Of a stretch of DNA of 64,000 nucleotides, positions 1 through 4,932 are shown in pieces. The first letter of the stretch is position 1. Each line of letters opens with the position of its first letter. A program made the translations under genes and the position numbers. Location: contig NZ_CP072378.1 of assembly GCF_018128245.1 (NCBI RefSeq), positions 1,674,001-1,738,000 of the forward strand, in the 5' to 3' direction. Origin of the DNA: Leptotrichia sp. oral taxon 221. GTDB lineage: Bacteria > Fusobacteriota > Fusobacteriia > Fusobacteriales > Leptotrichiaceae. Under the pieces are notes generated by a model, which was given only the letters and a program-made list of their open reading frames with translations, searched no databases and was not told the DNA's origin.

Positions 1-102
1 CTTCATATCTTCAACTTTTTGCATCTCGATTAAAGTACCTGGACACACTTGCGTACATTTCGTACACCCAATACATTTATATGGATCAATTACTATGCTC
101 AT
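1..102 (-). CDS. aprB: AprB-like 4Fe-4S ferredoxin subunit (3' part outside window)
   Basis: Only the first 34 codons are in the window; the gene runs off the left edge. The visible N-terminus carries a 4Fe-4S cysteine cluster, CIGCTKCTQVCP, as in ferredoxins and the beta subunit of adenylylsulfate (APS) reductase. Its ATG overlaps the last codons of the upstream flavoprotein gene by 17 bases, so the two are translationally coupled. An iron-sulfur partner directly after an AprA-like flavoprotein is the arrangement expected for AprAB, where it passes electrons to the FAD subunit. A generic ferredoxin is the alternative because the C-terminal part is unseen. Confidence 0.7.
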   Translation of the reverse strand, partial: MSIVIDPYKCIGCTKCTQVCPGTLIEMQKVEDMK

Positions 103-1846
103 ACTTGTCCTCCTTCACAATTTCCCTCGTAAATACTTCCAACTCTCCATCAACCAATCTCGAATTTACATATTTAAAATAATTTTCATCGGTTTCAGGA
201 TAATCTAAATTTTCATTAAATGAATGCCATCTAGTTTCTTTTCTAAAGAAAAGGTGTCCAATTAACGATTTACAAACCGTCAATCGCTCCTTCAATTCAT
301 AAGCAAACATCAAATCATGCATATTATCTGCCGAAAGCTCATCAGAAAGCTCTATCAACTGATCAATTTTCTGTTTTGCCAGTTTCAATTGTTTCTCGTT
401 AAACTGATAATTTGTCGATATTCCACCTGCATACTCATCCATAATTTTCTGCATTCCCTCTTCCATATCTTCAGTTGAAAATCTTCTAGCCTTCGTATTT
501 CTAATTTTTTCATATTGTCCAATAATTTGTTTTTTTTGATTATCCAAAAAGTTTTCCACATTTTCATCAAGTTTTCCACAATTTTTTTCATCATTCAATT
601 TTGAAATTATATCAAGTGCAGCAATTTCTCCTTCTGCCAATGCTCCTGTAACATATTTTTGTGGACAGCCTCCAGCTACATCACCTGCTGCATAAAGTCC
701 GTTAATCGTTGTTTCTCTATTCGTATTTACCCAAAAGCCGCTTGCAGTATGCCCTCCAACAATGTAAGGCTCTGTCCCTTCAATTTCTACATCTTGCTCA
801 TTTGGATTTTTTCCACTTTCAATCCACTTCAATGTTTGACTCGGTGCCATATTTAAATATGCTTTTAACAAACTATCGCTTTCATCTTCACTAATTCCAC
901 TTGTTTTCAAATAACAAGGCCCATTTCCAAGTTGATTTTCTCGCACAGTTCCATAAACACGCTCACTTGTTGTAAGTCCATATTTATCTTCATACACAAA
1001 TCCTTTCGAATTTATCTGTTTTGCTCCAACCCCTTGAGCAATTGTCCCAACTGGTGCAATTGTATCCTTACATCTCAAAGCAATAAATCTCATTTCAAAA
1101 GTTGTCATCTCAGCTCCTGCCAAAATTCCCATCGCATATCCTGCCCCAGTATTAAATGGCGGATACCACATTTTATGTCGTGAAAATCCAGGATTGTTAG
1201 GTTTATATAGTCCAGCAGCTCCTCCTGTCGAAATTATAACTTTTTTTGCTCTAATCACAAACGCTTCCTCTTTTTTTATAGAAAATCCAATAGCTCCATA
1301 AACTTTCCCATCTTTTGTGAGCAAGTCCGTAATATTAAGCGTGTTCAAAACTCTCACATTTTTTGTCTTTTTCACCGCATCAGCAAGTATCGGCTTAAAA
1401 TTTTCTCCATTTATTTTTATATTTCTGTTACCACGTGCTACATATTCTCCATTTTCATCCTTCAAAATTACAAGTCCTAATTTTTCCACTTCAGCCGTAA
1501 TTTCGTTAAATCTATTCGCAGCAGTAATTAGCAAGTCATTCCGTACAATTCCATTCGCATCTTTTGTTGCATAATCCACATAATCTTGTGGCACACGCCC
1601 TTTTACATTGTAGGCATTTATCGCATTAATTCCAGCCGCAAGACATCCACTTCTTTTAATATTCGCCTTTTCAGCCACAATTACTGACAAATCAGAATTT
1701 TTCCCAATCGTAATCGCTGCATAACAACCAGCAGTCCCTCCACCGATAATCAAAACATCAGTTTCAAGCTCCTTAATTTTCAATTTTTCTCTTTTTTTGC
1801 TCTCTTTTTCATTGCCATTATTCTTAATTCCCTTATTTTCTGCCAT
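86..1846 (-). CDS. aprA: AprA-like adenylylsulfate reductase flavoprotein subunit
   Basis: This 586-residue FAD protein belongs to the fumarate reductase/succinate dehydrogenase/APS reductase flavoprotein superfamily. Near the N-terminus it has the dinucleotide-binding motif VLIIGGGTAGCYAA, then a second FAD contact region (RSGCLAAGINA) and near the C-terminus YAAGDVAGGCPQK. It lacks the usual fumarate-reductase context and sits with CysA and sulfite reductase, which argues for reduction of adenylylsulfate to sulfite and AMP. I chose the ATG at 1846 because GAGGTG precedes it; the reading frame is open 12 bases further. It follows cysA by 24 bases and overlaps aprB. A different substrate (another oxyacid or organic acid) remains possible. 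Confidence 0.72.
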   Translation of the reverse strand: MAENKGIKNNGNEKESKKREKLKIKELETDVLIIGGGTAGCYAAITIGKNSDLSVIVAEKANIKRSGCLAAGINAINAYNVKGRVPQDYVDYATKDANGIVRNDLLITAANRFNEITAEVEKLGLVILKDENGEYVARGNRNIKINGENFKPILADAVKKTKNVRVLNTLNITDLLTKDGKVYGAIGFSIKKEEAFVIRAKKVIISTGGAAGLYKPNNPGFSRHKMWYPPFNTGAGYAMGILAGAEMTTFEMRFIALRCKDTIAPVGTIAQGVGAKQINSKGFVYEDKYGLTTSERVYGTVRENQLGNGPCYLKTSGISEDESDSLLKAYLNMAPSQTLKWIESGKNPNEQDVEIEGTEPYIVGGHTASGFWVNTNRETTINGLYAAGDVAGGCPQKYVTGALAEGEIAALDIISKLNDEKNCGKLDENVENFLDNQKKQIIGQYEKIRNTKARRFSTEDMEEGMQKIMDEYAGGISTNYQFNEKQLKLAKQKIDQLIELSDELSADNMHDLMFAYELKERLTVCKSLIGHLFFRKETRWHSFNENLDYPETDENYFKYVNSRLVDGELEVFTREIVKEDKYEHSN

Positions 1847-1870
1847 AAAACACCTCACAATCTACAAAAC

Positions 1871-2935
1871 CTAAATAATAACATCATTTTGATTTTTAAT
1901 ATTCGCATTTTCCACAAGTTCCACTTTTTCATCTTCACCAAAAGCATATGCCCTGTAAATATAAATATTCACTTTCTCATTCACAGAAACCGATTCTTCC
2001 TCAATTTTACGATTCCCTTTTATCAAAACTCCGTTTATTCTAACACCAATTTCAACCTCTTTCCCACGAAATAACGTATATTCCACTATTCCAGTTTCAA
2101 CCGAAGCCGAATATCTAAAATTCTCATTTAACTTTATAACACTTACATTTTCTGGACGAATAATTGCCTTTTGTCCATTTTCTAAATTTTCAAAACCTTT
2201 AAATTTATTAATATTTTCCAACTCTGTAGGATTTCCCATAAATTTTGCCACAAACGCAGTCTTTGGATTGGTATAAATTTCTTTCGGCGTCCCAATTTGC
2301 TCGATTTTCCCTCGATTTGTAACAATAATTTCATCCGCTACTTCAATTGCTTCTTCCTGATCATGAGTCACAAAAATGCTTGTAATTCCCACTTTATCAA
2401 TCGTTTCCCGTAACCAGTTCCTAAGATCTTGCCTAACTTTCGCATCAATTGCCGCAAAAGGTTCATCAAGTAACAATATTTCAGGATTCGGAGCCAATGC
2501 CCTTGCAAAAGCCACTCTTTGTCGCTGTCCTCCCGAAAGCTGATTTGGATATCGTTTCCCAAGTCCTTTAATATTCACAAGTTCCATCAATTTTTCCACT
2601 CGCTCTTTAATAACCGACTTTTTCTCCTTCGCAATTTTCAACCCAAAAGCAATATTATCAAAAACCGTCATATAACGAAACAATGCATAATTTTGAAAAA
2701 CGAAACCGATCCCTCTTTTACTAGGTGAAACATCATTCACGACTTTCCCGTCTATCACAATTTCCCCAGAATCAGGTGTTTCCAATCCAGCAATCATTCG
2801 TAAAATTGTAGATTTCCCACTTCCTGAAGGTCCTAATAATGCCACTAGTTTCCCTTTTTTTATTCCTAAATTGATGTCATTTGACGCTTTATAGTCGTTA
2901 TACATTTTATTTATATTTTTTAATTCAACATACAT
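1871..2935 (-). CDS. cysA: CysA-type sulfate/thiosulfate ABC transporter ATPase
   Basis: The protein is a 354-residue ABC ATPase with Walker A GPSGSGKST (about residues 35-43), signature LSGGQRQR and Walker B ILLLDEPFAAID, followed by the switch His in FVTHDQEE. The roughly 120-residue C-terminal extension is a TOBE-like regulatory domain, typical of importers for sulfate, molybdate, spermidine or maltose. Its position between sulfite reductase and AprA genes points to sulfate or thiosulfate import. No permease or binding-protein gene is visible; they may lie beyond the left edge. AGGAGA precedes the ATG. Confidence 0.8.
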   Translation of the reverse strand: MYVELKNINKMYNDYKASNDINLGIKKGKLVALLGPSGSGKSTILRMIAGLETPDSGEIVIDGKVVNDVSPSKRGIGFVFQNYALFRYMTVFDNIAFGLKIAKEKKSVIKERVEKLMELVNIKGLGKRYPNQLSGGQRQRVAFARALAPNPEILLLDEPFAAIDAKVRQDLRNWLRETIDKVGITSIFVTHDQEEAIEVADEIIVTNRGKIEQIGTPKEIYTNPKTAFVAKFMGNPTELENINKFKGFENLENGQKAIIRPENVSVIKLNENFRYSASVETGIVEYTLFRGKEVEIGVRINGVLIKGNRKIEEESVSVNEKVNIYIYRAYAFGEDEKVELVENANIKNQNDVII

Positions 2936-2970: not shown

Positions 2971-4614
2971 TTACCAAGCCTTTTTTGCATCAGCATTACG
3001 AAAATCATTAAAATCAATCGCTTCAAGCTCAAATTCCTTATATTTTTCAATCAACTCAATAAATCGATCTTCATTCACAAGTTGCTCAAATTCAATATTT
3101 TCTGCTTTTATAATATTCGCAATATCTTCAAGAAAATATGGTATTTTAGTAGCTTTTATTTCTCCAATAATTTCATTTAATTTTACTACCTTATCATCAA
3201 ATTTCCCTCTCGCAAAAATCGCAAAATATTCTCCATCTTTTTTACGTCTTCCACTAAATCCAAGTCTTGCAATTTGTGGAGTTGCACAAGAATTTGGACA
3301 ACCAGAAATTTTTATTTGTGGCAAATAATTTGCAAGTTCTCTTTTTTCTGGCTTTTCAAAATATTGAAGAACATAATCCAATATAGGTGGCGTATCCAAA
3401 ATCCCTACATTACAAGTTGTACTTCCGATACACGAATACGAATTAAAAAACTCACTTCCACCGTAATAATCACTCATCAATTCCTTCAACTTGAATAAAT
3501 CTTCTCTCTCAAGTCCTCTCACAAGCAATCTCTGATTACTTGTAATTTTTATATCCACTTCATATCCTAAATTTCTTATAAATTCAGCCAATTTAAGCCC
3601 ATCTTCTTTATAAATATTCCCACGATTAGGTCTCAAATAATATCCAAATTTACCATTTTTCCCAGCAACAATATTTGAATCTTCAAACTTTTCAAGCTCT
3701 TTAACTTCTCCTGCAAATAAATCTTTCTCTTGAGCTGCTTCATCTAGCAATTCTCTTGTATATTTTTTTAAGCTATCTCCTTTTTCAGCATAAAAATTTT
3801 CCACATACTCATTACACAATTTTAAAAATTCTTCTTCACCTAATTTTAATAATACGTATCTCAATCTAGCTCTAGCTCTTATTTTACGGTTCCCATGATC
3901 ATTAAAAACATTTCTCATAGCATGAACATAATACAAAAATTCATCTTCCTCAATAAATTCTCTTAAAATTATCGCATTTGACGATATTGGTCCTAATCCT
4001 CCACCGACATACACTCTAAATCCTTTTTTTCCATCTTTAATTACCGCTTGAAATCCAATATCATTTATTTTTACATATAATGAATTTTCTTCTTTGTTAG
4101 AAAAAGCGATTTTGTATTTTCTTGGCAAATGCATAAAAGTTCTACCATTCAAAATATAATCTGTCGTTATTCGACTATGAGGTCCCACATCAAAAACTTC
4201 TTCCTCAAAACCAGTTGTTTCTGGCGTAATTACCGCCCTTGTAGAATCTCCACAAGTTGCTTTCGTAAAAAATCCCATTTTTGAAATTGCTTCCAAAACA
4301 TTAGGTAAATTTTCCCTTTCAATTCCATGCAACTGAAAATCTTGTCTTGTAGTTATATGAAGTCTCCCATCTCCATATTTTTCCACAACTCCCAACAAAT
4401 ATTCTAATTCATCTGGCGTAATTTTACTCTCATAATAACGAGGACGCATCATATATGTCCCTTTTGCTCTCCCTTCAGTATAAAGTGCAAATGATGTTCT
4501 TATCGCATTCCACTCTTTTTCTTTCTCAGGGTCAGTCAAAGCCGCTTTCGTCAGCTTAATAATTTCTTGCAGTTCTTTAATTTCTGCCTCTTTCACAAAA
4601 TCTCTTTCTCTCAA
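2971..4614 (-). CDS. Siroheme [4Fe-4S] sulfite (or nitrite) reductase
   Basis: This 547-residue protein is a NirA/ferredoxin-type sulfite-nitrite reductase, which carries out the six-electron reduction of sulfite to sulfide (or nitrite to ammonia). It shows the two ferredoxin-like half repeats with substrate-binding arginines (GRAKGTYMMRPRYY, then HITTRQDFQLHG) and the siroheme/cluster cysteines C-IGSTT-C and C-PNS-C in the C-terminal half. Company with cysA and aprAB favours sulfite. I place the start at the TTG at 4614, which has an excellent GGAGGAG six bases upstream. The frame stays open to a TTG at 4680, but that stretch forms an intrinsic terminator and is better read as attenuator leader. 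If nitrite were the substrate, the operon context would be unexplained. Confidence 0.82.
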   Translation of the reverse strand: MRERDFVKEAEIKELQEIIKLTKAALTDPEKEKEWNAIRTSFALYTEGRAKGTYMMRPRYYESKITPDELEYLLGVVEKYGDGRLHITTRQDFQLHGIERENLPNVLEAISKMGFFTKATCGDSTRAVITPETTGFEEEVFDVGPHSRITTDYILNGRTFMHLPRKYKIAFSNKEENSLYVKINDIGFQAVIKDGKKGFRVYVGGGLGPISSNAIILREFIEEDEFLYYVHAMRNVFNDHGNRKIRARARLRYVLLKLGEEEFLKLCNEYVENFYAEKGDSLKKYTRELLDEAAQEKDLFAGEVKELEKFEDSNIVAGKNGKFGYYLRPNRGNIYKEDGLKLAEFIRNLGYEVDIKITSNQRLLVRGLEREDLFKLKELMSDYYGGSEFFNSYSCIGSTTCNVGILDTPPILDYVLQYFEKPEKRELANYLPQIKISGCPNSCATPQIARLGFSGRRKKDGEYFAIFARGKFDDKVVKLNEIIGEIKATKIPYFLEDIANIIKAENIEFEQLVNEDRFIELIEKYKEFELEAIDFNDFRNADAKKAW

Positions 4615-4642
4615 TTTTCTCTCCTCCAAAAAATTTTTAAAC

Positions 4643-4672
4643 AAAAAATCCGAACTTTTTACATTCGGATTT
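4643..4672 (-). terminator. Attenuator terminator hairpin (segments 4:5)
   Basis: On the minus strand AAATCCGAA (4672-4664) pairs perfectly with TTCGGATTT (4654-4646) over nine base pairs around a nine-base loop, and the right arm runs into six T residues. This is a textbook intrinsic terminator placed before the sulfite reductase ribosome-binding site, so it would stop transcription before the operon. Confidence 0.75.
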
Positions 4673-4773
4673 ATTATCAAATATTGTGATTTTGTATGTC
4701 TCCGAATAGCCTTTTATTTTAATTAAAAACCGTCTACTCGAAGATTGAATAAATTTCTAACTTCTTGTAGACC
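4661..4773 (-). promoter_or_regulatory. Mutually exclusive RNA pairings: cysteine attenuator core
   Basis: Four segments before the terminator can pair in alternative ways (minus strand). Segment 1 (4772-4761) pairs with segment 2 (4743-4732) as 6 bp, a 2x2 internal loop and 4 bp. Segment 2 (4744-4734) pairs with segment 3 (4709-4699) over 11 contiguous pairs including two G-U. Segment 3 (4707-4701, ATTCGGA) pairs with segment 4 (4669-4663, TCCGAAT) over 7 perfect pairs. Segment 4 is the left arm of the terminator. Thus 1:2 frees 3 to form antiterminator 3:4, while 2:3 leaves 4:5 free to terminate. Segment 1 overlaps the last codons of the Cys-rich leader ORF. The pairings are seen by eye; the regulatory logic is inferred from trp-type attenuators. 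Confidence 0.7.
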
Positions 4774-4849
4774 TTATCATACACATACAACAACACATGC
4801 TATTTATTAAATTTAAATTGTTTTTTAACCTTTTCACTTTATTTCTCAT
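4757..4849 (-). CDS. Cys-rich leader peptide of the sulfate-assimilation operon
   Basis: A 30-codon ORF starts with ATG at 4849 behind a GGAG about eight bases upstream and ends with TAG at 4757. Residues 1-17 are basic and Asn-rich; residues 18-25 read MCCCMCMI, that is, three consecutive Cys codons (all TGT) and a fourth two codons later, with three Met. The Cys run ends just before pairing segment 1 of the downstream attenuator. Four Cys in thirty residues ahead of a sulfur-assimilation operon fits a leader whose translation measures charged tRNA-Cys, as known for polycysteine leader peptides in mycobacteria. I infer that ribosomes stalled for Cys leave segment 1 free and permit readthrough. 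Confidence 0.78.
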   Translation of the reverse strand: MRNKVKRLKNNLNLINSMCCCMCMIRSTRS

Positions 4850-4903
4850 TTTCTCTCCATCCTTTTTGTTTATTTTTCCCCTACAAACTTCTTTCATATA
4901 CAA

Positions 4904-4932
4904 ATATTAACATTTTTCAAAAAATATGTAAA
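4904..4932 (-). promoter_or_regulatory. Promoter for leader peptide and sulfate operon
   Basis: On the minus strand TTTACA (4932-4927) and TAATAT (4909-4904) are separated by exactly 17 bases. Transcription would begin near 4897, giving a roughly 48-base untranslated region before the leader ATG. Confidence 0.55.

Follow-up and report, generated by a model that had tools for sequence, protein, structure and literature searches.

The leader of the sulfate-assimilation operon

The window analysed here is a stretch of 64,000 nucleotides (nt) from Leptotrichia sp. oral taxon 221 (contig NZ_CP072378.1, positions 1,674,001 to 1,738,000). On its minus strand, to which all features below belong, a sulfite/nitrite reductase-like gene with a TTG start (2971..4614; matched above cut-off by Pfam and by no NCBIfam model) is the first gene of a sulfate-assimilation operon. 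The gene is preceded by a leader in which a short open reading frame (ORF) with clustered cysteine codons is followed by alternative RNA helices and a terminator.

The leader starts with a predicted sigma-70 promoter, TG-extended (4904..4932), in which TTTACA (4932-4927) and TAATAT (4909-4904) are 17 nt apart. Promoter matches alone are weak evidence, this stretch holding 8 promoter-like pairs versus 3.1 in shuffles; pairs with the same spacing, judged by eye, also precede four other leaders of the family. A Shine-Dalgarno (SD) motif, GGAG (4855..4858), lies upstream of an ORF of 30 codons (4757..4849; ATG at 4849, stop codon at 4759-4757) with the translation MRNKVKRLKNNLNLINSMCCCMCMIRSTRS. 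Its regulatory codons TGT TGT TGT ATG TGT (Cys-Cys-Cys-Met-Cys) occupy 4781..4795, the four TGT codons being found at 4795-4793, 4792-4790, 4789-4787 and 4783-4781. The Cys codons end 8 to 20 nt, and the last one 8-9 nt, ahead of the first of five RNA segments.

Helix searches and folds calculated under ribosome masks define the first three of these. Segment 1 (4761..4772) is predicted to be free with the ribosome at the first Cys codons, and covered with the ribosome at the stop codon; segment 2 (4733..4744) is a partner of 1 or 3, and segment 3 (4699..4711) of 2 or 4. A U5 run (4725..4729) is located 3 nt past the last listed pair of segment 2. Segment 4 (4661..4671) may pair either with 3, as antiterminator, or with 5, as terminator. 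The terminator scan placed the intrinsic terminator 4:5 at 4643..4672, as a hairpin of 10 pairs with a loop of 7 (4672-4646) and a T6 run (4648-4643) which ends 28 nt from the TTG start at 4614. An earlier interpretation made from the letters alone, hereafter the sequence-only reading, had described the promoter, the GGAG, the four-Cys ORF, the five segments and a nine-pair terminator; apart from the additional pair in the terminator, all were found as described. The pairings it proposed were recovered as well. A duplex search places helix 1:2 at 4771-4761 with 4743-4733 (9 pairs, with a 2x2 internal loop), and helix 3:4 at 4710-4701 with 4669-4661 (9 pairs and one bulge, including the ATTCGGA/TCCGAAT core). 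Helix 2:3 (4744-4734 with 4709-4699) has the predicted 11 contiguous pairs in the masked fold, as checked letter by letter, 10 of which are given by the duplex search.

The chance occurrence of such helices was assessed by a greedy helix-chain search, in which the partner of segment 4, then the partner of that partner, and then the next are sought in the RNA left uncovered when a ribosome occupies the first Cys codon. The design of the search confines segment 1 to the RNA downstream of that codon +13. The unsupervised search recovers helices 1:2, 2:3 and 3:4 in the window, and the energy sum of the three was reached by 0 of 1000 dinucleotide shuffles. The terminator scan finds one site, whereas shuffles average 0.0. 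A cruder measure, how much it costs to free segment 4, agrees (14 of 120 shuffles) but is not significant alone.

In our estimate, with a probability of about 0.85, sequence and folding models indicate that the leader is a ribosome-mediated transcription attenuator sensing charged tRNA-Cys. While RNA polymerase moves along the leader, a ribosome would be translating the 30-codon ORF behind it. With scarce Cys-tRNA the ribosome would stall at the TGT codons, leaving segment 1 free to pair with 2; segment 3 would then pair with 4, the terminator would not form, and the sulfate-assimilation operon would be transcribed. With ample Cys-tRNA the ribosome would reach the stop codon and cover segment 1, segment 2 would pair with 3, and 4 with 5, and transcription would stop ahead of the sulfite reductase gene. 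Hairpin 1:2, together with the U-run, probably pauses RNA polymerase, letting the ribosome catch up. The position of the U-run after segment 2 suggests either a pause or an extra terminator, and hairpin 1:2 could be a weak extra terminator acting when the leader is untranslated.

The operon continues with the ATPase of a sulfate ABC transporter, CysA type (1871..2935; TIGR00968 above cut-off), and the alpha subunit AprA of adenylylsulfate reductase (86..1858; NF005331 above cut-off). Beyond the window, cysD, cysN, sbp (sulfate-binding protein), cysT and cysW follow on the same strand of the same genome, the gap between aprA and cysD being of ~345 bases. AprA-type adenylylsulfate reductases are classically dissimilatory; the enzyme encoded at 86-1858 sits within a seemingly assimilatory sulfate operon.

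Related leaders and predicted switching in the family

Sulfite reductase matches at E <= 1e-20 were found in 13 of 33 genomes of the family, among which the window's own genome (G000) is the sole representative of its genus. Cys leaders precede the gene in two other genera, in genomes G017 (58% identity; leader MNITKLIIKKENIFIYKNLINEMCMWF) and G026 (35% identity; leader MENKINIINYNMCMCSRRV). The operons of the two differ from that of the window, and feature an arylsulfotransferase-thioredoxin fusion and a sulfonate-type ABC transporter. The leader is therefore tied to sulfur function and not to a single gene order. In G000, G017 and G026, a search by codon pattern identified a second G026 leader, MKVHYIIDKNNLMMCMC, ~440 nt upstream of a cysteine synthase gene (TIGR01139 above cut-off); the G024 counterpart, MNAVYIIDKKNLMMCMC, came from a cysK search. 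The two cysK leaders, nearly identical and closely related, make up about one independent case. The genes downstream of these leaders serve the synthesis or the supply of cysteine, whether as sulfate operon, as sulfonate-type transporter with the fusion protein, or as CysK.

The four leaders keep the Cys codons and all three alternative helices, while much of the sequence differs. A U-run of 4 or more starts within 3 nt after segment 2 in five of the five family leaders (raw count); what follows the last listed pair of segment 2 is CGG-U5 in the window, U5 in G017, UCA-U4 in the G026 sulfite reductase leader, and U5 in both cysK leaders. The sequence-only reading had proposed a comparison with related Leptotrichiaceae for conserved Cys codons and stems. 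These were found in G017, where the predicted switch is weak, in G026 and in G024; Leptotrichia species lack the leader and have a different predicted control element (see below), so that only part of the family has the leader.

Some features of these loci deserve separate mention. The stretch ATTCGGARRCATAYAMAATC (window 4707-4688; L013), spanning segment 3 and the following loop, is common to G000 and G017. The G017 sulfite reductase behind the single-Cys leader (L013/L021/L051) is split into frames of 321 and 177 amino acids, and is either a pseudogene or the outcome of a sequencing error. The fusion protein of the sulfonate operons (L051, L052) is ~600 amino acids long, and homologues in genus g13 (L095-L100), 57-62% identical, reside in a different gene context. 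Between attenuator and cysK, a second short Arg-rich ORF (MLFLQIENDKRRRGG... and MLFLEIRSNSRKRGRRKP) was noticed by eye in both species (L102, L103), with an AGGAGG/GGGAGG-like motif upstream.

Switching was modelled with energy models in which a ribosome masks the RNA up to A site +13, and the highest pair probability was taken for each helix. With the first Cys codon of the window in the A site, the probabilities of helices 1:2, 2:3 and 3:4 are 0.97, 0.02 and 0.97; with the stop codon in the A site they become 0.00, 1.00 and 0.00. The window hence switches in the way the sequence-only reading had proposed, and setting the mask to 10 or 16 leaves the outcome unchanged. Helix 3:4 likewise reaches 0.95 in the G026 sulfite reductase leader, 0.98 in the G026 cysK leader and 0.88 in the G024 cysK leader with the ribosome at the first Cys codon. 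At the stop codon helix 2:3 reaches 0.99-1.00 in the window and in these three leaders, and 3:4 falls to 0.00 in the G026 sulfite reductase leader as in the window. In the window, in G017 and in the G026 sulfite reductase leader, segment 1 would be wholly covered by a ribosome at the stop codon; in the two cysK leaders the cover would be partial. In silico, the family leaders thus contain a mutually exclusive antiterminator depending on ribosome position, which is weak in G017.

The helix-chain search was first run with 500 shuffles on 12 leaders, using only the 5' half of the terminator stem (plus five loop bases for cysK). Three helices were reached by 0 shuffles for the window, 1 for G017, 57 for the G026 sulfite reductase leader, and 0 for either cysK leader. 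The terminator loop was added after seeing this result, and 6 of the 12 leaders (the five of the family and a metA leader described below) were rerun with 1000 shuffles. Counts were then 0 for the window and for G017, 5 for the G026 sulfite reductase leader, 0 and 1 for the G026 and G024 cysK leaders, and 0 for metA. In the two cysK leaders and in metA the finder had picked other hairpins, and the terminator was placed by hand; in the cysK leaders its choice was hairpin 1:2 over 4:5.

Distribution in the phylum and weight of the alternatives

A codon pattern was searched for in 98 genomes of the phylum. Among the matches listed many are lipoprotein signal regions; the pattern misses leaders, as that of G017, and leader counts are lower bounds. 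Genus g23, which belongs to another family (G083, G084, G085), hosts Cys/Met-rich leaders, each with a terminator (L182-L187, L250). They precede metA (NF047918), metY in two species (TIGR01326), an amidohydrolase gene (TIGR01891), and nifH in all three species (TIGR01287), all above cut-off, as well as a gene for an NMT1/SsuA-type binding protein (Pfam above cut-off, the SsuA model below its cut-off). The nifH leaders of the three species have MCCC(K/E)N(N/D)TF in common. Cys/Met leaders thereby recur before sulfur genes in four genera of Fusobacteriota. The 13 leaders are rich in Met, with 55 Met among 400 non-start residues. Since the search pattern required one Met, one was removed from each leader; the remaining 42 of 387 compare with 1.9% in six proteins of the window (P about 3e-19, calculated as if residues were independent, which those of related leaders are not).

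In the masked fold of the metA leader, helix 3:4 has a probability of 1.00 at the first Cys codon; at the stop codon 2:3 rises to 0.94 but 3:4 is still at 0.57, and the greedy 1:2 helix does not form. One, two and three helices were reached by 29, 12 and 0 of 1000 shuffles. In the models, the metA leader partly behaves like a relay. Some g23 leaders, as those of metY, seem to have a plainer layout: the antiterminator arm lies at the end of the ORF, where a ribosome on the stop codon would mask it.

A further survey took in 124 upstream regions, those of sulfite reductase, cysK, metY and nifH-like genes (leaving out L149, at a contig end, and two G096 metY loci). Nine of the 124 have, in the sense strand, a short ORF which starts with ATG, has an SD-like motif and contains C.?C; one has such an ORF in the antisense strand, and this is the leader of a divergent metA. 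The single-Cys G017 leader does not contain C.?C. The antisense strand, not the nine, is the control, because most of the nine came from earlier searches. The arylsulfotransferase operons of genus g13 had no convincing Cys leader in front of them, nor did 26 other metY loci, 14 other nifH-like loci and 17 further sulfite reductase loci (L033-L049); sulfite reductase matches occur in 48 of the 98 genomes, and these loci were inspected for a leader in part.

A different element marks the corresponding genes in Leptotrichia, the large genus (g5 in this comparison) neighbouring that of the window. In 9 of 9 species the perfect palindrome TTGTANATACAA precedes the sulfite reductase gene (L003-L011), and in 12 of the 12 species scanned it precedes cysK, as it does in G023 (L104, L105, L107, L109-L111, L114-L120), at a distance of about 50-200 nt from the gene. 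The scan covered 13 sulfite reductase and 19 cysK loci, and omitted the interrupted cysK of G012; the background is one occurrence in 286,509 bases, about 6,500 of which were counted twice. All five family loci with a leader lack the palindrome. It is also missing at loci without a leader, namely sulfite reductase and cysK of G002, and cysK of G017, G020 and the window's genome. Leader and palindrome are mutually exclusive in the loci scanned. TTGTANATACAA is a probable operator of a sulfur regulator in Leptotrichia and at the G023 cysK, and we infer from this distribution that one control element replaced the other. In the window, TTGTATATGAAA (4892..4903), directly after the -10 box and two mismatches from TTGTATATACAA, is possibly a decayed copy of TTGTANATACAA, which is found near the promoter in Leptotrichia.

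Several results weigh against attenuation by the mechanism proposed, or against its generality. The sulfite reductase homologues of nine Leptotrichia species (76-80% identical to that of the window) and of G002 (62%) have no Cys leader. Helix 3:4 persists at the stop codon in the cysK leaders of G026 (0.35) and G024 (0.08), with values up to 0.45 with mask 16. In G017 the stalled ribosome gives a 3:4 probability of only 0.18, despite a minimum-energy fold which is the expected one. The G017 locus may be decaying, because it has a single Cys codon and a sulfite reductase split into two frames. When the A site holds the last Cys codon, helix 2:3 is already favoured in three of the four multi-Cys leaders (G026 sulfite reductase 0.97; cysK 0.78 and 0.83), while the window still favours 3:4 (0.96); the first Cys codons would therefore matter most. 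Without a ribosome helix 3:4 has a probability of 0.01 in the window (0.27 in G017, 0.76 and 0.74 in G026, 0.45 in G024), and energy models leave out the kinetics of transcription. Nor is the segment-4-opening test significant for most leaders: shuffle counts per 120 are 14 for the window, 5 for G017, 17 and 11 for the G026 sulfite reductase and cysK leaders, 15 for the G024 cysK leader, and 4, 12, 48, 7, 35, 74 and 41 for the seven of g23. Both the mean pairing of segment 4 and its opening cost under the masks discriminate poorly in the 12 leaders. Finally, 6 of the 7 g23 leaders lack a significant helix chain in the 500-shuffle search (17, 79, 74, 161, 59, 440 and 299 for the seven).

Among the alternatives, a metabolite- or tRNA-binding riboswitch (T-box, S-adenosylmethionine (SAM), or an undescribed class), the ORF being incidental, has a small chance of being correct. 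It would accommodate the conservation of ATTCGGARRCATAYAMAATC in G000 and G017, whose loop part is not explained by pairing and is unneeded by the attenuator model. Yet only rRNA and tRNA families of Rfam reach the gathering score in the window, the best sub-threshold match in the leader has E 0.29, and nothing relevant appears at E<=10. Moreover, ATTCGGARRCATAYAMAATC occurs exactly in only 2 of the 98 genomes, and with <=2 mismatches the count is 21, versus 17 when the pattern is reversed. Loci where the segments have different sequences also share Cys codons, SD and ORF placement. An equally small chance is left to a nascent peptide with an MCMC-like motif which, sensing cysteine or another sulfur compound in the ribosome, would arrest translation, as TnaC does with tryptophan. 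M/C-rich motifs (MMCMC, CMC, MCCC) do recur in four genera, and the near identity of the two cysK leaders suits this view, but the residues flanking the motif vary between genera and the number of Cys ranges from 1 to 8, as codon-reading leaders would show. Least probable of all is an ordinary operon 5' region with a constitutive terminator and a Cys-rich ORF by coincidence. In its favour, AT-rich DNA yields many weak helices and the cruder structure statistic was modest; against it, the helix chain was reached by 0 of 1000 shuffles, such ORFs are 9 in sense versus 1, a divergent leader, in antisense, and they recur in four genera.

Starting from the probable attenuator in the window, a broader scenario may be drawn, to which we assign somewhat less than even odds. 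Some Fusobacteriota may control a sulfur regulon through a dispersed set of attenuators with Cys and Met codons, partly built as five-segment relays and reaching even a nitrogenase-type (nifH) operon; in Leptotrichia the genes would instead be under a DNA-binding regulator acting at TTGTANATACAA. From the leaders one would expect the use of sulfate and of sulfonate, and the nifH operon, to be governed by a cysteine sensor. Related genera having an RNA attenuator or a predicted DNA operator on the same genes make regulator exchange open to direct study.

Comparison with known systems

The window holds the components of a leader-peptide attenuator: an ORF, putatively translated, with an SD and cognate codons; a terminator between ORF and gene; and downstream genes for the synthesis of the amino acid supposedly sensed. 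The trp, his and leu attenuators of Proteobacteria similarly combine a leader peptide enriched in the amino acid that the operon makes, hairpins excluding one another, an intrinsic terminator and, possibly in the window too, a 1:2 pause hairpin. In trp the stalled ribosome covers segment 1, and the pause hairpin 1:2 couples ribosome and polymerase. Here, in contrast, there are five segments, the Cys codons are upstream of segment 1, and segment 1 would be free in starvation; the even segment number and the stalled ribosome on segment 1 of classical trp and his attenuators are not found in the window. The sequence-only reading had called the leader trp-style, a term which holds for the switch dependent on ribosome position seen in silico, and fails for the location of the Cys codons and the number of segments. 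The S-box and T-box of Firmicutes also attenuate transcription of sulfur genes, through a ligand- or tRNA-binding RNA without leader peptide; in the window no riboswitch or T-box covariance model of Rfam gives a match at gathering score.

Cys codons in leaders have been described elsewhere. PMC8632094, a study which also screened Fusobacteria genomes, describes uORFC-8-2 upstream of cysS in Rhodobacterales. This motif joins an intrinsic terminator to a short ORF in which Cys codons stand in tandem; ribosome-mediated attenuation is proposed for it, and it is a candidate only. As there described, uORFC-8-2 concerns one gene in one alphaproteobacterial order, and its Cys codons are inside the first of two stems; in the window the downstream gene is sulfite reductase-like, and the Cys codons are outside stem 1:2. 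In Actinobacteria, according to PMC1262725, Cys leader peptides precede the cys operons of Mycobacterium and Propionibacterium and cbs of Bifidobacterium, those of Mycobacterium being without conserved terminator hairpins. Polycysteine ORFs are known in M. smegmatis (Canestrari 2020, as cited in PMC13236596). The actinobacterial leaders share with those described here the runs of Cys codons before sulfur genes, and differ because Rho-dependent or translational control is proposed, and the mycobacterial ORFs are leaderless. Among the literature matches listed, a set mostly outside subscription papers, no such leader was found in Fusobacteriota. Relative to the systems above, new here are the odd number of segments, the set of genes, the enrichment in Met and the exchange with an operator.

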